Positions 1,345 to 46,281 of a stretch of 64,000 nucleotides of DNA are shown piece by piece. The stretch is from Candidatus Poribacteria bacterium (GTDB lineage: Bacteria > Poribacteria > WGA-4E > PCPOR2b): NCBI GenBank assembly GCA_022826645.1, contig JAJDUM010000060.1, positions 62,001 to 126,000 on the forward strand. The letters are read 5' to 3'. How positions within the stretch are numbered: position 1 is the stretch's first letter; each line of letters starts with the position of its first letter. The position numbers and the translations under genes are program-made. The notes under the pieces were generated by a model, which saw only the letters and a list, made by a program, of their open reading frames with translations, was not told the origin of the DNA and searched no databases.

Positions 1345-1587
1345 CTATTCGAGGGCTTCTTCCACTGCCTCTGGCAGGGTAACGGTGCTTGGATCCACAT
1401 CAATGGGATATTCGGTGCCATAGGCTTCAACGAGTTCGTCAAATGTTGCGTTATCTACGTTCTCTAGTTCTCCACCGGGACGATTGAGAAAAACACCTTG
1501 GCAGCCATCACAACTCATTAGATCCACATCCGATCGCTCGATCGGGAATTGTGTGAGCGGATTATTACAACTTGGACAAGGAAGCAT
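1345..1587 (-). CDS. Zinc-ribbon protein of the zf-TFIIB type
   Basis: An 80-residue protein with two cysteine pairs, CPSC at residues 4-7 and CDGC at residues 26-29, spaced as in the zf-TFIIB-like zinc ribbon. The C-terminal half is acidic and has no recognisable motif. It starts 62 bp after the stop of the MoeB fusion on the same strand and has no promoter of its own that I can see, so it is probably cotranscribed with moeB. The function of this family is not established; metal binding is inferred from the cysteines. The pairing with a sulfur-activating enzyme may be functional or incidental. Confidence 0.75.
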   Translation of the reverse strand: MLPCPSCNNPLTQFPIERSDVDLMSCDGCQGVFLNRPGGELENVDNATFDELVEAYGTEYPIDVDPSTVTLPEAVEEALE

Positions 1588-1649: not shown

Positions 1650-2846
1650 TCAGTCGGCAGCAGTTGCAAGTGGTTCGGAATGATCCAATTCGCAAAATTC
1701 GACGTAGTCACTAATCAGTTCAGTAATCCTCGGCTCTTCTCCGCAGATTGGGCAGTTCTTATCCCGATTCACTTTCAGCTCACGAAACTTCATACTGAGT
1801 GCATCATACATTATCAAGCGACCGATGAGAGGTTCGCCAACATCGAGCAACAGTTTAACCGCTTCAGTTGCCATTACAAGACCAATTGTACCCGGGAGCA
1901 CGCCCAGGACACCAGCCTCGTTTCAGCCAGGCACCATGCCAGGCGGCGGCGGCGTTGGATACATGCACCGATAGCACGGTCCATCGTGTGGCTTGAGGAC
2001 GGTTGCCTGCCCTTCAAACTGAAAAATACTGCCGTGTACGATGGGTGTGTCCGTCAGCACTGCGGCATCATTGACCAGATAGCGTGTTGCAAAGTTATCG
2101 CAGCCATCAACGACCAAGTCATACTCGTTAAAGAGATCAATAATGTTGTCTTCTGACAGTCGCATATTGTAGGGAACAACATTGACATCAGGATTCAGGG
2201 AAGCGATTGTTTCAGCCGCAGATTCTGCTTTCGGATTGCCAACAGTCTCTGTGCGGTGGAGAATTTGTCGCTGCAAGTTGCTTAAATCAACGACATCCGA
2301 ATCGACCACGCCGAGCGTACCAACACCTGTCGCCGCAAGATATAGCCCTGCTGGCGAGCCCAAGCCACCTGCTCCAACGAGTAGTACCTTAGCTTCCAGC
2401 AGCTTCGACTGTCCCCTTTCGCCCACTTCAGTCAACATAAAGTGACGGCTGTACCGCTCCAGTTGGTCTGGTGTCATCGTTTTATCTTTGGCTGTCGGGA
2501 GTCCTGCCGCTGACCAGTCTCGATAGCCACCCGCCATGGATACGGAATCCGTGTATCCCAGTTCCTTTAGGGATTTGGCGGCAAGCAAGGATCGCATCCC
2601 TGCGGCACAATAGACGATTACCCTCTTGTCCCGATCTGGCACTTCATCTTCAATCGAGAATTCAAGCATTCCTCGTGTGACATGAACCGCATCGGGGATA
2701 TAGCCCGCTCGATATTCATCTTCATCGCGGACATCAAGCAGTACAACATTGTCCCCGCCTTCCGCTTTCTCTTTCTGAGCTTCTTCAACAGAAACCTCTG
2801 GGATCTCTTTTTTAACTTCTTCGATAATTTGCCCTGTGGATTTCAA
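1650..2846 (-). CDS. moeB: Rhodanese-MoeB/ThiF fusion with in-frame UGA at the catalytic cysteine (candidate selenoprotein)
   Basis: E1-like adenylyltransferase that would activate the C-terminus of a ubiquitin-like sulfur carrier (MoaD or ThiS type), fused to a sulfurtransferase. Read through, the product is 398 residues. An N-terminal rhodanese domain spans about 20-117, with active-site Cys80 in a CAAGMR loop. The ThiF/MoeB domain starts near 125, with the nucleotide loop GAGGLG at 158-163, and zinc cysteines at 291/294 (CYRC) and 365/368 (CPIC). Codon 308 is TGA (1923-1925), exactly where the family has its conserved Cys before the EAGVLG segment, and the frame continues conserved to the normal C-terminus. 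I infer selenocysteine. A nonsense mutation or base error remains possible, in which case this would be two broken pieces (1923-2846 and 1650-1901). The start is TTG with GAGGTG upstream. Confidence 0.85.
1887..1925 (-). promoter_or_regulatory. In-frame UGA codon and bacterial SECIS-like stem-loop
   Basis: The UGA is at 1925-1923 on the minus strand. Starting 12 nt after it, the mRNA can form a 9-bp stem, with positions +12 to +20 pairing +27 to +36 and a single bulged U at +33. The 6-nt apical loop is CGUGCU (plus-strand 1902-1897). The loop has G at its second position, followed by U, and lies about 20 nt from the UGA. That is within the spacing described for bacterial SECIS elements recognised by SelB. 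The bulged U is on the 3' arm, whereas in E. coli fdhF it is on the 5' arm. The pairing is read by hand, not folded by software. Confidence 0.65.
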
Positions 2847-2928
2847 TGCAATTCACCTCATCTGTTCAATAGAATGTAGCAATCTCAGATTGTATTGGTG
2901 GTGGGACTTCGTATTCTTTACGGTTTTC

Positions 2929-2957
2929 ATTATATCACAAGCGGATGGTGCTGTCAA
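2929..2957 (-). promoter_or_regulatory. Perfect consensus sigma-70 promoter for the moeB fusion
   Basis: On the minus strand there is TTGACA (2957-2952), a 17-bp spacer and TATAAT (2934-2929), an exact match to the housekeeping consensus. The start would be near 2922, giving a leader of about 75 nt before the TTG start codon at 2846. Confidence 0.85.
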
Positions 2958-3021
2958 AACTAAATTAAGATGTGATATACTTGTGCGTATACTCATGTTT
3001 GGCGAGCTTATCTGGGAATCC

Positions 3022-3957
3022 ATGGAGGAAAAAGTAGGGCGTGCAGGACGTTCTACAGAGACTGTGCAGAACCCAATTTCTATAGTACTTGTTTTATTTT
3101 CAGCTTTCTTTCACGCGCTATGGAATTACTATGGTAAAGCAAGCCGCTCACCGCAACTGTTTTTCTTCTGGATTGGAATATTTACGGTAAGCGTGGCAGT
3201 CCTATGCTTCGCGTTGCAACTGCCAATCGTTCCAAAACCGGTTTGGATTTATATTATCGCGTCAGGCATCATCCACTTTTTCTACTGGCTATGCTTGAGT
3301 CGCGCCTATATGTCGGGCGAAATCTCTTATGTCTATCCAATAGCCAGGTCTGCCCCCGGATTCATCCCCTTTTTTGCCTTCCTGTTTTTAGATGAGCGGC
3401 TTTCTGCACAGGGACTGGTTGGCATTTTTCTGATCTTATTCTCAATTTATCTGCTTCAGCTGCGGGGTGGTGGACTGACATTCAAGGATTTGCTGGTGTA
3501 CATCAAGCGGCCGGCTTCGGTATGGGCGTTTTCAACGCTCGGCACAGTAATCGCATATTCGCTGATTGACAAGGCTGGGATGTCCGAATTTTATGCCCAT
3601 TCTACCCAACGACACGCTTGGCAACCCGTAAGCTACTTTTTGACAGAAAGTATAATCGCGATGGTATTGTATGGCAGCTATATCATGCTTTGGTTCCCGT
3701 CGCGGGAAATCACAGATATAGGGTGCCAAGAATGGAAAAAGGTTCTCGCAACTGGAGTGCTTTCAATGCTTTCTTACACGATTATCCTTTATGTGTATAT
3801 GACCGAAAGTGTTAGCTACGTGGTCGCGCTCCGACAGTGCTCTGTGATCTTTGCTGTATTGCTCGGTGGCTATTTGCTGAAGGAATCACAAACAAAACTA
3901 CGATTTATGGCGGCGGTGGTGATGGTTATCGGGCTGTTTTTGATTGCGACGGCGTAA
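3022..3957 (+). CDS. EamA/DMT-family membrane transporter
   Basis: A 311-residue polytopic inner-membrane protein with about ten hydrophobic segments in two related halves, typical of the drug/metabolite transporter superfamily. The first half contains a segment resembling the EamA repeat (IARSAPGFIPFFAFLFLDERLS), and the last helices (VVALRQCSVIFAVLLGGYLLKE) match the end of the second repeat. The substrate cannot be told from sequence. The open frame extends upstream to 2836, but that part overlaps the divergent moeB start and promoter, so I prefer the ATG at 3022; 2995 is an alternative. It is divergent from moeB and convergent with the acyltransferase gene, 7 bp from it. Confidence 0.82.
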   Translation: MEEKVGRAGRSTETVQNPISIVLVLFSAFFHALWNYYGKASRSPQLFFFWIGIFTVSVAVLCFALQLPIVPKPVWIYIIASGIIHFFYWLCLSRAYMSGEISYVYPIARSAPGFIPFFAFLFLDERLSAQGLVGIFLILFSIYLLQLRGGGLTFKDLLVYIKRPASVWAFSTLGTVIAYSLIDKAGMSEFYAHSTQRHAWQPVSYFLTESIIAMVLYGSYIMLWFPSREITDIGCQEWKKVLATGVLSMLSYTIILYVYMTESVSYVVALRQCSVIFAVLLGGYLLKESQTKLRFMAAVVMVIGLFLIATA

Positions 3958-39654: not shown

Positions 39655-41322
39655 ATGAACGGTGCACACTGGTTGGTTCAAACACTTCAGCAGCGAGGCG
39701 TGGAATACGTCTTCGCGCTTTGCGGCAATGGGCTTAAACCGTTTCTCGACGCATGCGTAGATTTGCAGATGCCGGTGGTTGACGTACGAAACGAACAATC
39801 CGCCGCATATATGGCGGATACATGGGGACGGATGACCAAACGGATTGGAGTAGTCGCCGTGAGTGCGGGACCGGGACACACGAACACCCTTACCGGACTC
39901 GCGAACGCCTTCTGGGATGGTGGCCCCATGCTCCTGATTAGCGGCTGTGCCACGACAGATACACGCGGTATGGGGCATTTCCAAGAACTGGATCAGGTGG
40001 GCATGGCGGCACCCGTTTGTAAATATGCTCGGTTTGTTGATCGCATCGATGTCTTGGAGCACGAATTTACCAATGCACTGGGGGCATCATTCGCCGGTCG
40101 TCCGGGTCCGGTGCACTTGACTATACCTAGTGATGTATTTAGTGCACAGATGCCGCATTCAGCCATTGCTCGTTTGCAGGAGACTCCATCCACGATTACC
40201 TACATCGACCCACAAGCCCCCGGCGATCCAAATCTGATCGGTGATGCTGTTGAACAGTTATGTAATGCGGAACGTCCTGCTATCATTGTGGGCAACGGAG
40301 CGTTCTACGCTGATGCTGGTGATGCACTTGCTCAATTTGCTGGTCTAACGCATATTCCGATTTTTTCAAATATGTGGTCGCGGGGGTGCATTGAGACACC
40401 TTTGGATGCGTATGTCGGTACAACCTTCGGTGGCGAGACCAACGGCGCATTTGCCAATCTCTCGGAGGTTGATATCGCACTGGTGTTGGGAGCGGGGATT
40501 GACTACCGGGTGGGGTATGGTCGTCCTCCCGTTTTTTCTGAATCGGTTCGTTTTATCCGTGTTGATGTTGATCCGAATGAGCTATCAAAGACGATTGAGC
40601 CGGAGATTGGAATTGTCGGCGACCCACGGTCTGTTCTTGAAGGACTGAACGATGCAGGAAAACGCCATAGGTGGAATCATCAGGCGTGGCTGGCAAAGAT
40701 ACGCCGAAGCCGTGAAGCATTGCTGGCGAAGTGGGTAACACGCGGGCATGCGGACGTAACTCCGCTCCCCTCAATACGAATCTGTCGGGAGATTCAGCCA
40801 TTTCTGGATCAGGACGTGACTTTTCTGCTTGATGGCGGAAACATCGGACGTTGGGCACACATGACCCTCTGGAATCGTCATCCAGCGCACTGGTTCACCT
40901 GCGGTGCAAGCGGGATTGTCGGTTGGGGTGTGCCGGGTGCAGTCGCCGCAAAGTTAGCGAGACCTGACAAACCGGTACTGCTCTTGAGCGGTGATGGTTC
41001 AGCGGGCTTTACGATTACGGAAATCGAAACGGCGTTACGGTTCAATACACCTTATGTCGCCGTCGTTGCACACGATAGGGCGTGGGGTATAGAAGCAGAC
41101 TCTCGCGCGCCAGAGCGTCGCATGGGAACAGTGTTCGGCGAAATCCGCTTTGACCGTGTTGCCGAAGCACTTGGTGGGAAGGGGGTATACATTGAGCATC
41201 CCACTCAACTTGCGCCGGCGATTGAGCAGGGGTTAGCTGCGGATACAGTCACCTTTATCCATGTCCCAACGGAGCTTGGGGGAATTGGGTATCTTGATGG
41301 GCAATATACGGAGGCGGAGTAA
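39655..41322 (+). CDS. Thiamine diphosphate-dependent enzyme, acetolactate synthase-like
   Basis: A 555-residue ThDP enzyme with three domains: Pyr (catalytic Glu in VRNEQSAAYMA near residue 49), central and PP. The PP-domain metal motif starts GDGSAGFTITEIE near residue 449. The usual N-D/N-X-A-W end of the motif is AHDRAWG, with His where the metal-binding Asn is expected. The overall pattern resembles acetolactate synthase large subunit, benzoylformate decarboxylase and similar carboligases; no regulatory subunit is next to it, so the substrate is open. AGGAGG lies 8 nt before the ATG. A hairpin lies after the gene. Confidence 0.87.
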   Translation: MNGAHWLVQTLQQRGVEYVFALCGNGLKPFLDACVDLQMPVVDVRNEQSAAYMADTWGRMTKRIGVVAVSAGPGHTNTLTGLANAFWDGGPMLLISGCATTDTRGMGHFQELDQVGMAAPVCKYARFVDRIDVLEHEFTNALGASFAGRPGPVHLTIPSDVFSAQMPHSAIARLQETPSTITYIDPQAPGDPNLIGDAVEQLCNAERPAIIVGNGAFYADAGDALAQFAGLTHIPIFSNMWSRGCIETPLDAYVGTTFGGETNGAFANLSEVDIALVLGAGIDYRVGYGRPPVFSESVRFIRVDVDPNELSKTIEPEIGIVGDPRSVLEGLNDAGKRHRWNHQAWLAKIRRSREALLAKWVTRGHADVTPLPSIRICREIQPFLDQDVTFLLDGGNIGRWAHMTLWNRHPAHWFTCGASGIVGWGVPGAVAAKLARPDKPVLLLSGDGSAGFTITEIETALRFNTPYVAVVAHDRAWGIEADSRAPERRMGTVFGEIRFDRVAEALGGKGVYIEHPTQLAPAIEQGLAADTVTFIHVPTELGGIGYLDGQYTEAE

Positions 41323-41385
41323 AACAATAGATGGACGTATCCTGAAGAGCAAAGCACAACAAGTAGATTAAAATTTGGCCACGTG

Positions 41386-41411
41386 ATGCGTAAACGACTC
41401 CTCTTACGCAT
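41386..41411. repeat. ATGCGTAA/TTACGCAT hairpin after the ThDP gene
   Basis: A perfect 8-bp stem with a 10-nt loop lies 63 bp after the ThDP gene stop. It is part of a short tract with repeated tgcgtaa words. It may end the upstream transcript before the dapA promoter, but lacks a T-run. Confidence 0.5.
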
Positions 41412-41427
41412 TGCGTAAATATTGAGA

Positions 41428-41456
41428 TTGACACGCTGACTGGGATCGGTTAAAAT
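41428..41456 (+). promoter_or_regulatory. Sigma-70 promoter for dapA
   Basis: TTGACA (41428-41433), 17-bp spacer, TAAAAT (41451-41456). This gives dapA its own start with a leader of about 100 nt. I see no lysine riboswitch in that leader. Confidence 0.75.
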
Positions 41457-41562
41457 AAGCCCAATTTAAACACCGAGTTGTTTGAGGGTCAATACTGAAA
41501 GAGTTGAAAGGTTAGTAAAATTTACTCACCAAAACACCACCCTGACTCTAAGGAGGCAAAAA

Positions 41563-42441
41563 ATGTTTGAAGGATCCTTTGTCGCACTCGTGACACCATT
41601 CAAAGATGACGAATCTCTTGATGAAGCTAAACTTAAAGAACTGATCGAATTCCAGATCGATGGAGGCACGCACGGGATCGTTCCCTGTGGCACGACTGGT
41701 GAGTCTCCCTCCCTGTCAGAAGAGGAACATGACCGTGTGATAGAAATCACGGTTGATACGGTCAATGGTCGCGTACCAATCATTGCAGGAACGGGATCCA
41801 ATTCGACGGCGCGGACCCTGCGATCTACGGAACACGCAAAAGCTGCTGGTGCCGATGCTGCGCTTATCGTGACACCGTACTATAACAAACCCAATCAACA
41901 GGGATTGTACGCACATTACATGAAAATTGCCGAAAGCGTTGACCTCCCCATTATTATCTACAACGTTCCCGGTCGTTGTGGGACGGACATTCTTTCGGAC
42001 ACCGTCGCCCGACTTGCCGAACACCCGAATATCGTAGGACTCAAAGAGGCAACCGGCGAACTGAAACGTGCTAGCGAAGTGGTATCCATGTGTCCCGATG
42101 ATTTTGTCGTGCTTTCGGGTGATGACATCAATACTTTACCAATCCTCTCCGTCGGTGGAAAAGGCGTAATCTCGGTCGTTGCAAATGTGGATCCTGCTGA
42201 TATCGCTGAAACGTGCAACGCCTTCAAAGCGGGTAATATAGAACTCGCTCGAAAACTCCACTATAAAACCATGCAGTTAGCGGTGGACCTCTTTATAGAG
42301 ACGAATCCCATTCCCGCGAAAACAGCCCTCATGATGATGGGAAAACTTAACGGCCAGCTGCGGCTCCCGCTTGCACCGCTCACACCCGCCAATGAAGAGG
42401 CATTGCGTCAGACACTGAAGGACGCGGGCTTGATTAACTAG
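41563..42441 (+). CDS. dapA: 4-hydroxy-tetrahydrodipicolinate synthase
   Basis: A 292-residue class I aldolase-type TIM barrel that condenses pyruvate and aspartate semialdehyde in the lysine and diaminopimelate pathway. The Thr pair in CGTTGESPSLS (near residues 42-52), the catalytic Tyr in IIYNVPGR and the Schiff-base Lys in VGLKEATG are all present. AAGGAGG lies 6 nt before the ATG at 41563, which is preferred over the longer frame from 41482. Related lyases (N-acetylneuraminate, 2-keto-3-deoxygluconate) share the fold, but the GTTGE and YNVPGR motifs fit DapA best. The closely following aldo-keto reductase may be cotranscribed. Confidence 0.93.
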   Translation: MFEGSFVALVTPFKDDESLDEAKLKELIEFQIDGGTHGIVPCGTTGESPSLSEEEHDRVIEITVDTVNGRVPIIAGTGSNSTARTLRSTEHAKAAGADAALIVTPYYNKPNQQGLYAHYMKIAESVDLPIIIYNVPGRCGTDILSDTVARLAEHPNIVGLKEATGELKRASEVVSMCPDDFVVLSGDDINTLPILSVGGKGVISVVANVDPADIAETCNAFKAGNIELARKLHYKTMQLAVDLFIETNPIPAKTALMMMGKLNGQLRLPLAPLTPANEEALRQTLKDAGLIN

Positions 42442-42532
42442 CAATCCTTCAACTGTGGTTTGTATCCTGTTGGTCGATGTTGGAAAATCGACTGACAGGC
42501 TATTTGACGGCTCGTCAATCGGAGGAGCAGCA

Positions 42533-43477
42533 ATGCAATATCGTGGTTTGGGAGCGACAGGTTTGACCGTTTCCGAGATCGGCATGGGAACATGGGAACT
42601 CGGCGGGCGAGAATGGGGTGATATAGACGACGCTGCGGCCATCCGTTTGCTTCAACATGCGTATGAACAGGGGGTTACTCTGTACGATACCGCCGATCAG
42701 TACGGCGGTGGTCGCTCTGAACGATTGCTCGGACAGGCTTTCGCTAACTTGCAAGACGCGGTGGTTATCGCCACGAAGGTCGGCTATGAAATAGACTCCG
42801 ATGGCTGGGTGAGTCAGGGGTGGGAACAACGACCATCATTTAACACTTCCCGCGACTACATTCGCACCGCTGTGGAGGGGAGTCTACAACGCTTGGGACG
42901 CGAAACGATAGACACCTACCAATTTCACGCGCCTCCGGCTCCCGAACAGTGGGATGAAGCGTTCGAGACAATGGAACAACTCAAGGCTGAAGGGAAGATA
43001 CGTTTTTACGGTATGGCTCTCGGTAGTGAGGAACAAGCGCTAAAAGCAGTTGAGGAAACCGGCATCTCCACAATGATGCTGACCTACAACATCCTGAATC
43101 AATCGATGGCTGAGACGGTGCTGCCGGCAGCACAATCCAAAGGTGTAGGGGTTATCGTCCGACAGCCGCTCGCATCGGGGCTGCTGTCCGGACAATTGAC
43201 ATTGGACACGAAGTTTGCCGCCAACGACCATCGCAAACTCTGGTCCTCCGAACAGTTGCGCGATGACCTGCAAAAGGTGGACATCGTCAAAGCAATTGTC
43301 GGTGACGCAACCGAGACACTCCCCCAAGCCGCCCTTAAATTTATCCTTGCCCATCCAGCCGTCAGCGCGGTTGTCCCTGGCATGATGACGACCGCACAGG
43401 TAGACGATGGCGTTTCCACAGCTGATTTACCTGCGCTGCCGCCGTACATTTTGCAGCGATTACAGAACGAATTCTAA
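42533..43477 (+). CDS. Aldo/keto reductase
   Basis: A 314-residue NADP(H)-dependent aldo-keto reductase. The catalytic Asp and Tyr appear in LYDTADQYGGGRSE near residues 44-57, the Lys in VVIATKVGYE and the His in YQFHAPP. The MQYRGLGATGLTVSEIGMG start is typical. The substrate is unknown. The GGAGG site 6 nt before the ATG at 42533 supports this start over 42455. It is followed 33 bp later by the histidine kinase gene. Confidence 0.92.
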   Translation: MQYRGLGATGLTVSEIGMGTWELGGREWGDIDDAAAIRLLQHAYEQGVTLYDTADQYGGGRSERLLGQAFANLQDAVVIATKVGYEIDSDGWVSQGWEQRPSFNTSRDYIRTAVEGSLQRLGRETIDTYQFHAPPAPEQWDEAFETMEQLKAEGKIRFYGMALGSEEQALKAVEETGISTMMLTYNILNQSMAETVLPAAQSKGVGVIVRQPLASGLLSGQLTLDTKFAANDHRKLWSSEQLRDDLQKVDIVKAIVGDATETLPQAALKFILAHPAVSAVVPGMMTTAQVDDGVSTADLPALPPYILQRLQNEF

Positions 43478-43510
43478 TACCAAGATGTGTGCACATTGTC
43501 ATCACGTCCT

Positions 43511-45139
43511 ATGGTCATGAATCGCCTGAAGTTTCAACGCAAGCTGCTGATTCTTTTTGTGGGAATGGCACTGCTACCCACTGCTGTCCTCGTTTTCGTC
43601 TCCTACCATCTTATTAGTCGAAGCGTGGAGCGTTGGGCAAATCACCAAATTGCGTTAACGCTTACGAACTCCGCAGCAATTATTGAAGGTGCCAGTGAAA
43701 TCGCCCACACGCTCGAACTCTATGAGAACCTACCCCTGACGGACACCGCTGAACTTTTGGCGGTTGATGAGGACTTGGTTGTCGTATTGGATGATTTTGA
43801 CCCGGAAGCTGTCAAGATCCGAGCCACCGCACTCGCGGATACCTACGGTGATTACCTCATCGCCATCTACGGCTGGGACGGCCATCTCGTTTTTAGCACT
43901 AATCCGAATCACCCACCCGAAACACTCACCACTCTTTTGGGTCCGTTGGAGGCGTTACCTGATGCTCCAACCATCTCAGACGAATTGGCAGACCAAGGTT
44001 TTTTGATTTGTGGTGTACCAATCTTCTCAGAGGATGGGACGAAACGCTTGGGGGCGGTAGTGGTTGGGAAATCTATGGCATTGACGCTCGCCCAAATGCG
44101 AACCCAGATGTCAGCCATCCAAAATAAACTCAGTCCTCTGGAAACAGATCTCAATGCGGAAGGGACCGCATATCGTCGAACGGAGCGAGATGCAACGATT
44201 ATTGCCCTGTTGATTACGGCAGCACTGATTGTCATCGTCGCCCTTTTTGTGAGCAAGGTTCTCGCAAAAGGGGTTAACACCCCAATCCGATCCCTTGTTA
44301 CCGGCACAGAAGAAATCTCCAAGGGAAACCTTGACTATCAGGTGGCGGTGCAAACTGATGATGAGTTCGCTCTCTTAGCCGGTGCTTTCAACCGGATGGT
44401 CTCTGATCTGAAAGCACGCACTGAGGAGTTAAGGCGCGCGGAAAAAATCGCGGCGTGGCAGGATATTGCACAGAAGTTAGCGCATGAGATCAAGAATCCA
44501 TTAACCCCGATTCAGTTGTCGGCGGAACGTTTGCAGCGTCGTTACCGTAATAACCCTGATGATCTCTCCGAACTGTTGGAACGCTGCACGCAAACGATTA
44601 TCGCCGAAGTTGAAGGGTTGCGACGGTTACTCGATGAGTTTTCCGTGCTCGCTCAGATGCCCGCCCCGGAACTCTCCCCCGTGGACCTGCGTGAGACGCT
44701 TGATGCGACGTTAGCACTCTTCGACGAATTTCCCAACCATATCAATTGTCAAATCAACTTTCCCGCTAATCTTCCTACCGTTACGGCGGATGCAGATCAC
44801 CTCAAGCGTGCATACCTCAACCTTATCAATAATGCCATTGAAGCGATGTCGGAGGAAGGGGAGAAGAAAGGGTGCTTGGCAATTCGCGCTTTTGTATCAA
44901 CAGACGGATCCAAAGTGTTCGTACAATTCGCCGATACTGGACCGGGCATGTCTGCTGAAGTTCGACCGAAACTGTTCACCCCGCATGTTTCCACCAAGCG
45001 GGATGGGATGGGACTCGGATTGGCAATTGTCAAAAAGGTGATGACGGATCTCGGCGGGGATATTCGGCTTGAGGACACCCAACCCAATCAGGTTGGTGCA
45101 ACCTTCACCCTGTGGCTGAGAGCAATTGCGAAGGATTGA
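43511..45139 (+). CDS. NtrY-like sensor histidine kinase
   Basis: A 542-residue membrane kinase with TM1 near residues 13-35, a periplasmic sensing region of about 190 residues, TM2 near 227-250, a HAMP domain, and a HisKA helix with the phosphorylated His in KLAHEIKNPLTPIQL near residue 327. This H-box resembles NtrY. The HATPase domain has the N box YLNLINNAIEAM, the G1 box DTGPGMS and the G2 box GMGLGLAIVKKVM. No response regulator is adjacent, so it is an orphan within this window. The start is ambiguous between 43511 and 43517. No promoter is seen, so it may be read through from dapA. Confidence 0.9.
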   Translation: MVMNRLKFQRKLLILFVGMALLPTAVLVFVSYHLISRSVERWANHQIALTLTNSAAIIEGASEIAHTLELYENLPLTDTAELLAVDEDLVVVLDDFDPEAVKIRATALADTYGDYLIAIYGWDGHLVFSTNPNHPPETLTTLLGPLEALPDAPTISDELADQGFLICGVPIFSEDGTKRLGAVVVGKSMALTLAQMRTQMSAIQNKLSPLETDLNAEGTAYRRTERDATIIALLITAALIVIVALFVSKVLAKGVNTPIRSLVTGTEEISKGNLDYQVAVQTDDEFALLAGAFNRMVSDLKARTEELRRAEKIAAWQDIAQKLAHEIKNPLTPIQLSAERLQRRYRNNPDDLSELLERCTQTIIAEVEGLRRLLDEFSVLAQMPAPELSPVDLRETLDATLALFDEFPNHINCQINFPANLPTVTADADHLKRAYLNLINNAIEAMSEEGEKKGCLAIRAFVSTDGSKVFVQFADTGPGMSAEVRPKLFTPHVSTKRDGMGLGLAIVKKVMTDLGGDIRLEDTQPNQVGATFTLWLRAIAKD

Positions 45140-45171
45140 GTTTGCATGATGGAGGGGAAAATATCTAACGT

Positions 45172-45201
45172 TTGATACTAATCTGCGTTATCATGTATAC
45201 T
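45172..45201 (+). promoter_or_regulatory. Promoter of the HsdR-N-like nuclease gene
   Basis: TTGATA (45172-45177), an 18-bp spacer, TATACT (45196-45201), followed by GGAGG just before the ATG at 45226. The leader would be under 20 nt. Confidence 0.6.
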
Positions 45202-45225
45202 GGACTTTAATTATGGAGGTAAAAA

Positions 45226-46281
45226 ATGTCTGATAAATTGCTGGAAGTTATAGAAGACTTACAGTCAGATGAGAACTTAAACTCCCTTAGCGAAGCTGAT
45301 ATAAGCCTAGGTGTTATTCTGAGAATATTGGATGCGCTGAGTTGGAGCACATATAATCGCCGAGAAGTAAGTCCTGAATATTCTGTAGAAAACAGATGGG
45401 TAGACTATGCTTTGTTGATCGGCAACACACCACAGATATTCATTGAAGTGAAAAAAGGGGGTGAACCGCTGGAAAGACACCAAGAACAACTTCTAGATTA
45501 CGCTTTTAGACAGGGTGTTAAAGTTGCAATACTTACCAACGGCGCAACTTGGTGGTTTTATCTGCCGCTTCGAGCGGTAAGTTGGGAACAGAGAAAAGTC
45601 GCTACTGTGGAACTGGATAAACAGGACAAGGGGGAGATTGCCCAAAAATTGGTGAATCTTCTCGGTAAAGAAAATGTGAGATCTGGGAAAGCTGTCCAAA
45701 ACGCAGAAGTTCTTTACAAGAAGCGTCAAAGTTCGGCGACCTTACCGGAGGCGTGGAATCAGCTAATGAGTGAGCCGGACGGTTTGCTTATGGAACTCCT
45801 TGCAGAAAAGACAGAGGAATTATGTGGGCATAAGCCAGATAAGCACGAAGTAGAGCAATTTCTGCTGGCACATCTTCAAGATATAAGGATAACGAAGTCC
45901 CCAGATCCTATTTCCCCCAAACCAAAACCTCAGAAAGACACGAAACGCAAGGCATTTACAGTTACGAAACCCACGGCGTTTACGTTTAACGGACACAGAG
46001 AAGAGGTTTCGTCGTGGAAGGAAATGATACTCAAATTATGTAAGATACTGTATGCCGATCACGCGGATTTTGAGCAACGGGTATTAGAGATAAAAGGAAG
46101 CAGAGGTCGCCGCTTCTTTTCAAGAAATGCTGACGATGTTCAGGAAGGTTTGGAGATAAATGGAACAGGTATTTATGTTGACACCTTCCTCGATGCTGAA
46201 TGGGCTAAAAGATTCGCGGAAAAGATTATCACCGAATTTGGGTATGGTAAAGGCAGCCTGTCATTTGAGGTGCGTCAGTAA
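45226..46281 (+). CDS. Orphan HsdR N-terminal-type PD-(D/E)XK nuclease-like protein
   Basis: A 351-residue protein whose N-terminal 150 residues match the type I restriction enzyme R N-terminal domain. The catalytic Asp is at 60 (RWVDYALL), and EVK at 74-76 completes the D...EXK motif, with a following LERHQEQLLDYA helix and AILTNGATWWFY strand. A linker rich in Pro/Lys (about 225-245) leads to a C-terminal domain of about 100 residues ending EINGTGIYVDTFLDAEWAKRFAEKIITEFGYG, a domain also seen at the end of other HsdR-N proteins. There is no helicase domain and no methylase or specificity gene nearby. A defence or DNA-repair nuclease is likely. Confidence 0.82.
   Translation: MSDKLLEVIEDLQSDENLNSLSEADISLGVILRILDALSWSTYNRREVSPEYSVENRWVDYALLIGNTPQIFIEVKKGGEPLERHQEQLLDYAFRQGVKVAILTNGATWWFYLPLRAVSWEQRKVATVELDKQDKGEIAQKLVNLLGKENVRSGKAVQNAEVLYKKRQSSATLPEAWNQLMSEPDGLLMELLAEKTEELCGHKPDKHEVEQFLLAHLQDIRITKSPDPISPKPKPQKDTKRKAFTVTKPTAFTFNGHREEVSSWKEMILKLCKILYADHADFEQRVLEIKGSRGRRFFSRNADDVQEGLEINGTGIYVDTFLDAEWAKRFAEKIITEFGYGKGSLSFEVRQ

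Follow-up and report, generated by a model that had tools for sequence, protein, structure and literature searches.

E1-like enzymes that load sulfur carriers are regarded as relatives of the ancestors of ubiquitin activation. To what extent the loop cysteine of the E1 domain acts in catalysis or in protection is not agreed for every such enzyme. In Uba4/MOCS3, as in the protein described here, an E1 domain with a crossover-loop residue and a rhodanese share one chain, but there the rhodanese is C-terminal rather than N-terminal and the loop residue is Cys rather than selenocysteine (Sec). Mycobacterial MoeZR is likewise an E1-type enzyme for sulfur carriers and, unlike our protein, a Cys enzyme with a C-terminal rhodanese. 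MoeZR serves both MoaD and CysO carriers (PMC3227635), and in Uba4 the adenylated carrier is transferred to C202 as a thioester before the persulfide on the rhodanese residue C397 attacks it (PMC7527816).

MoeB-type selenoproteins were reported from marine metagenomes in 2005 (11 sequences, Sargasso Sea; PMC1088965) and 2008 (19 sequences, GOS data; PMC2398784), so the kind is already known; both papers bear out what the sequence-only reading of this DNA had suggested. The 2005 paper describes SECIS-like stem-loops in all its new families (PMC1088965), and MoeB selenoprotein rows appear in the tables of reviews from 2022 and 2026 (PMC9312934, PMC13188914). Compared by description, these proteins (COG0476, pfam05237/PF00899) resemble ours in having a MoeB/ThiF domain with Sec, but the 2026 table apparently lists one Sec, and the accessible text mentions no rhodanese together with MoeB. 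Rhodanese selenoproteins (forms 1-5 of the 2026 review) carry Sec in the rhodanese domain, whereas our rhodanese keeps Cys; four of the homologues seen appear to combine a Sec-rhodanese with a Sec-E1 in a single polypeptide. Neither a double-Sec rhodanese-E1 nor a Poribacteria gene of this kind was found in the titles and abstract openings listed by our searches of the open-licence PMC literature. As far as these searches show, what is new here is the order-wide use of a Sec-E1, together with four relatives that have a second UGA at the rhodanese catalytic cysteine; this double-Sec form looks like a new variant.

The window, i.e. the whole stretch of 64,000 nucleotides analysed, lies on contig C26 of a 6.04-Mb draft genome (127 contigs, 94.4% complete) of Candidatus Poribacteria, a sponge-symbiont group; the nearest named relatives are Candidatus Poribacteria as well. 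On the minus strand, positions 1650..2846 encode a predicted rhodanese-MoeB/ThiF selenoprotein of 398 residues, read through one UGA, with a TTG start at 2846 and a terminating TGA at 1650-1652. As to the placement of the start, most relatives match from residues 1-3 onward, and a Shine-Dalgarno-like TGAGGTGAA can be read in the sequence before the TTG (2852..2860, minus strand). A perfect promoter had been cited as an argument against decay: TTGACA-17-TATAAT does match at 12 of 12 positions (2929..2957, minus strand), but the whole scan gave 3 such sites and shuffled sequences 2.7, and we regard it as a consensus match and not as evidence of function.

The N-terminal rhodanese domain spans residues 23-114 (2505..2780, minus strand; PF00581) and the ThiF/MoeB E1-like adenylation domain residues 132-366 (1749..2453, minus strand; PF00899, 283.7 bits, above the Pfam gathering score). 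The best full-length family match in NCBIfam is NF006444 (PRK08762, molybdopterin-synthase adenylyltransferase MoeB), with 543.8 bits against a cut-off of 449 over residues 6-386, while moeB proper (TIGR02355) scores 218.3 bits, below its cut-off of 376.55. NF006444 shares with our protein its nature as a full-length MoeB family, but neither the name nor the kind of this family points to Sec. The predicted fold (pLDDT 88.8) has its best PDB matches in ThiF, MoeB and Uba4, with TM by target of 0.94-0.96 for ThiF and MoeB; the least certain inner stretch of the model is 301-310, the loop holding residue 308, fitting a mobile loop. Membership among the E1 enzymes is marked by a paired CxxC occurring twice: across 42 sequences C291 and C294 are invariant, and C365 and C368 are present in at least 90%. 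We take these four cysteines to be zinc ligands. The last pair is the CPIC that had been noted downstream of the UGA near the C-terminus, and it is present in the translation. In one copy from the same order (L165, 1983-2228, minus strand), NWPVG stands in place of CPxC, which means that not every copy has the second pair of cysteines.

Codon 308 (1923..1925, minus strand) is the in-frame UGA, and frame reading and homologue alignment predict selenocysteine there, in the E1 crossover loop. As the sequence-only reading had stated, this TGA is the sole stop between the TTG and the terminator, and it takes the place of a conserved cysteine: VPG-U-NEAGVLG aligns with the Cys of E. coli MoeB and ThiF and of Chaetomium Uba4, which precedes the AGV/AGI segment and in Uba4 is C202. 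Relatives were sought in 97 genomes, 72 of which (G000-G071) belong to the same genus, family or order. Among the matches listed (to E about 3e-46), 67 of these 72 order genomes hold a copy with exactly one stop, a TGA; 64 copies are near full-length, two are N-terminally cut (G061, G070) and one is a contig-edge fragment (G005). Among the matches listed for the 72 genomes, every rhodanese-E1 copy contains a stop, and those matches that contain none start no earlier than query residue 111, i.e. without the rhodanese. At the same depth of E about 3e-46, where short fragments may be missed, no copy is among the matches listed for G012, G057, G063, G065 and G066.

Homologues had been proposed as the arbiter of codon 308, and they carry TGA or TGC/TGT throughout; the single exception is L143, which has GGC and, at about 30% identity, is a paralogue. 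The 80 named fetched loci divide into 58 with TGA and 22 with a Cys codon; with duplicates kept, the 146 loci that contain the site give 110 TGA, 26 TGC, 9 TGT and 1 GGC. After duplicates, L010 and L138 (both Cys), L143 (GGC) and L168 (a TGA fragment) were left out, 110 distinct homologues remain (77 TGA, 33 TGC/TGT, 0 other). These loci represent the best matches listed rather than a random sample, with the codon read in fetched loci only. Outside Poribacteria, the records with UGA copies are titled Tectomicrobia, Entotheonella, Nitrospinota, Proteobacteria, Deltaproteobacteria, Brocadiia or Planctomycetota; such titles are partly misleading, since L086, L088, L089, L090 and L096 fall into one phylum in the genome search. 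Further UGA copies were found in the phylum of L110. A quick tree places 76 of the 77 UGA rows in one group (support 87) and L185, on a long branch, among the Cys rows; on this tree the predicted history of Sec and Cys is one of two changes, one of them forced by well-supported branches.

A sequencing error or a decaying pseudogene as the origin of the stop is so improbable as to be negligible, and we rejected both: nothing was found in their favour. Against them stand a single TGA in the listed copies of 67 of 72 order genomes, TGA at codon 308 in the fetched loci read, its occurrence in further phyla, and purifying selection up- and downstream of the UGA. Over residues 325-386, 600 comparisons of randomly paired UGA copies, with duplicates retained, give pN 0.197 and pS 0.734, which indicates protein-level selection on the part after the UGA. 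Genome-wide recoding of UGA was unsupported, as the gene itself ends in TGA and the UGA of codon 308 swaps only with Cys codons. The UGA is more than a product of chance: both the order and further phyla preserve it, and close homologues that lack it have a Cys codon instead. Taken with the hairpin, the synonymous diversity and the selenium genes described below, this makes the window gene very probably a working selenoprotein. UGA-containing genes of this kind are easily misannotated as truncated.

Directly after the UGA lies a SECIS-like hairpin in which 19 pairs, interrupted by two single-base bulges, close the loop CGUGCU (1876..1921, minus strand), delimited by its fold and by synonymous constraint; its uninterrupted apical part, a 6-bp stem with the loop, occupies 1891-1908 on the same strand. 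The 50 nt from the UGA have a minimum-energy fold of -22.1 kcal/mol, a single hairpin, at z -3.49 against dinucleotide shuffles, a value that depends on how the stretch is cut (z weakens to -2.64 with 60 nt and to -1.17 with 43 nt). A 9-bp stem with a 6-nt loop had been described as starting 12 nt after the UGA, which is right within a base: the stem has 8 pairs with one bulge from 12 nt after the UGA, or 9 from 11 nt if U15-A39 is included. The 2026 review gives, for bacterial SECIS elements, a loop of 3-9 nt with G in the first two places, a stem of 4-16 bp, a spacing of 16-37 nt and an MFE of at most -7.5 (PMC13188914). Folding, the check that had been suggested for this hairpin, places it within these limits (stem 6, loop CGUGCU, spacing 20 nt, -8.5 kcal/mol) when applied by a script that accepts bulge-free stems only.

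The same limits hold for 62 of the 67 distinct segments after UGA compared with 13 of the 33 at Cys codons; the five remaining UGA segments fail the -7.5 limit. Outside Poribacteria, 16 of 16 UGA segments lie within them (p 2.5e-5 vs Cys, indicative only as the sequences are related). Synonymous diversity separates the two states as well. In 65 UGA copies, the eight lowest of 254 sliding segments (codons 125-384) all start at codons 309-316, whereas in 22 Cys copies the segment starting at codon 312 ranks 243rd of 254, i.e. near the highest; judged from the alignment, the constraint after the UGA is that which would be expected of a SECIS. When the folding energy of 51 nt was compared with that of synonymous recodings, UGA and Cys copies scored alike (mean z -0.90 and -0.89, respectively); a bias of the peptide GVLGVLPG towards palindromes rich in G+C may be the reason. 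The apical fold alone does separate them (mean z -1.57 for UGA and -0.28 for Cys copies); this measure and the published limits were chosen after the whole-region folding test had failed. Stem length separates UGA from Cys copies little, and GT at nt 25-26 is present in all copies of both kinds. In a fixed register, covariation analysis revealed no compensatory pair change. By eye, L133 and similar copies keep the stem through a one-base register shift.

A search of the source genome for the selenocysteine genes, as had been proposed, recovered selA, selB, selC and selD, all over their curated cut-offs. Contig C2 holds selA (599 bits), selB (368.8 bits) and a tRNA-Sec (76.6 bits) within 3.5 kb, and ARAGORN calls this tRNA SeC with the anticodon tca (UCA). 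The selD gene (367 bits; contig C13, positions 2928-3848, locus L127 of genome G000) contains one in-frame TGA, which makes SelD another probable selenoprotein. As the tRNA-Sec family model rings in 14 of 14 control genomes at a loose threshold, only strong hits were counted. Such a hit is missing in 6 of the 67 UGA genomes of the order, and those six are assemblies of 140-530 contigs. Outside Poribacteria, tRNA-Sec was detected in 10 of 10 UGA and 13 of 22 Cys genomes of a first set (at least 67 bits), and in 4 of 7 UGA and 10 of 11 Cys genomes of an added set (E 1e-9). Taken together (14/17 UGA, 23/33 Cys), its presence outside Poribacteria does not differ between Sec and Cys states (p 0.5).

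These searches also bear on whether the UGA might be read through without selenium, by Cys or another non-Sec suppressor, or serve as a regulated truncation. Translation might conceivably stop in the loop to give a 307-residue product, and three UGA genomes outside Poribacteria (G259, G371, G407) show no tRNA-Sec hit at E 1e-9; set against this, the source genome has a dedicated Sec system, the sequence after the UGA is under SECIS-like constraint, and the UGA swaps only with Cys codons. We consider such a reading highly improbable.

We judge it probable that the gene encodes a functional selenoprotein E1 with its own rhodanese, although Sec insertion is inferred, as are the selenoester and the relay, both modelled on Uba4. 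SelA, SelB, tRNA-Sec and SelD would decode codon 308 as selenocysteine, guided by the hairpin that follows it. The E1 domain would then, as in Uba4, adenylate the C-terminal glycine of a MoaD/ThiS/CysO-like carrier, and Sec308 in the crossover loop would accept the activated carrier as a selenoester. The relay would be completed by the persulfide of rhodanese Cys80, which would attack the selenoester and release the carrier as a thiocarboxylate. With selenium, residue 308 would be a stronger nucleophile and would recover more readily once oxidised, and a lineage that keeps Sec at this loop residue suggests that one of these properties matters for fitness. A selenoester on any E1 did not turn up in our searches of the open-licence PMC literature.

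Sec308 might instead be inserted but act mainly as protection against oxidation or self-conjugation, with no obligatory selenoester and the persulfide attacking the acyl-adenylate directly. The equivalent cysteine of E. coli MoeB is reportedly not essential, which counts for this alternative, and so do five Planctomycetota copies (L109, L110, L176, L177, L180) that keep Sec308 despite Asp at codon 80 (YDAGGNRSL). The Uba4 study provides an argument for each side: C202 limits self-conjugation under oxidation, yet Uba4 does form the thioester (PMC7527816). As residue 308 is moreover Cys or Sec in 110 of the 110 distinct homologues counted, we regard a mainly protective role as unlikely and prefer the selenoester relay. 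Since the Asp80 copies, a clade neighbouring the double-Sec forms, lack the rhodanese cysteine but retain Sec308, natural variants can separate the two sites; with Cys, Sec, double-Sec and Sec-with-Asp forms all occurring in nature, the question of catalysis or protection is testable by a single-atom change.

In the window gene, codon alignment places TGT at codon 80 (2607..2609, minus strand), which, from what we know of the rhodanese family, is presumably the catalytic cysteine. Four UGA copies have a second in-frame TGA exactly at this codon: L091 (1223-2368), from a record titled Deltaproteobacteria, and L181 (215-1339), L183 (1501-2634) and L184 (1501-2622), from genomes of the Planctomycetota phylum search. 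Their codon-80 segments lie within the SECIS limits in three of four cases, the fourth missing by 0.1 kcal/mol, compared with 3 of 98 Cys80 segments (p 0.0005), and the codon-80 loop of L091, CGUGCU, is the same as the codon-308 loop of the window gene. The four copies are 58-76% identical to one another; on the tree, L091 stands apart from the other three with modest support, a placement that fits two putative gains of the codon-80 UGA. A strong tRNA-Sec hit was obtained in two of the four genomes (G101, which holds L091, and G209) and was not found in the other two (G259, G371).

Judged from their codons and hairpins, some relatives thus appear to carry selenium at both active sites of the enzyme. 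We tentatively suggest, as a possibility we would put somewhat short of even, that the family includes a two-selenium relay, in which Sec80 and Sec308 of L091, L181, L183 and L184, each with its own hairpin, would act in a Sec-to-Sec transfer to the ubiquitin-like carrier via a selenoester. If so, sulfur, or conceivably selenium, would move from Sec to Sec to carrier. The phylum of L089 (Tectomicrobia group) also has free-standing rhodaneses (L139, L140, L141, L144, L148) in which TGA occupies the position of the catalytic cysteine.

Downstream of the window gene lies a gene for a small Zn-ribbon (TFIIB-type) protein (1345..1587, minus strand; PF13453), perhaps co-transcribed with the rhodanese-E1 gene; a TFIIB-type Zn-ribbon gene is near 34 of the 70 UGA copies examined. 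No shared partner gene was seen by eye in the ORFs around 13 loci, and tblastn with source-genome proteins, which may miss short carriers, detected no carrier gene beside UGA copies at 70 loci. The source genome encodes four ThiS/MoaD-family carriers, none beside the window gene; by names read from translations, their contexts comprise CysK-, CysH- and JAB-like genes, ThiO/ThiG, MoaE, and a xanthine-dehydrogenase-like gene. The four are a CysO-like carrier on contig C117, ThiS on C29, MoaD on C102 and a ThiS-like protein on C43. It also encodes a second E1, of the Cys type and without rhodanese. On its contig C117 (G000, 41000-45500; L170), a cluster of CysK, CysH, a CysO-like carrier, JAB and NIL was observed, with no E1 seen in these 4.5 kb; one of the two E1 enzymes of the source genome may serve it. 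By tblastn, neither CysK- nor CysO-like neighbours were found at 22 other Cys loci or the 70 UGA loci. At the Cys-type Planctomycetota loci examined, a CysK-like neighbour is present in 8 of 8 cases and a CysO-like neighbour in 6 of 8; from this neighbourhood, part of the family may work in cysteine synthesis by way of a protein thiocarboxylate.
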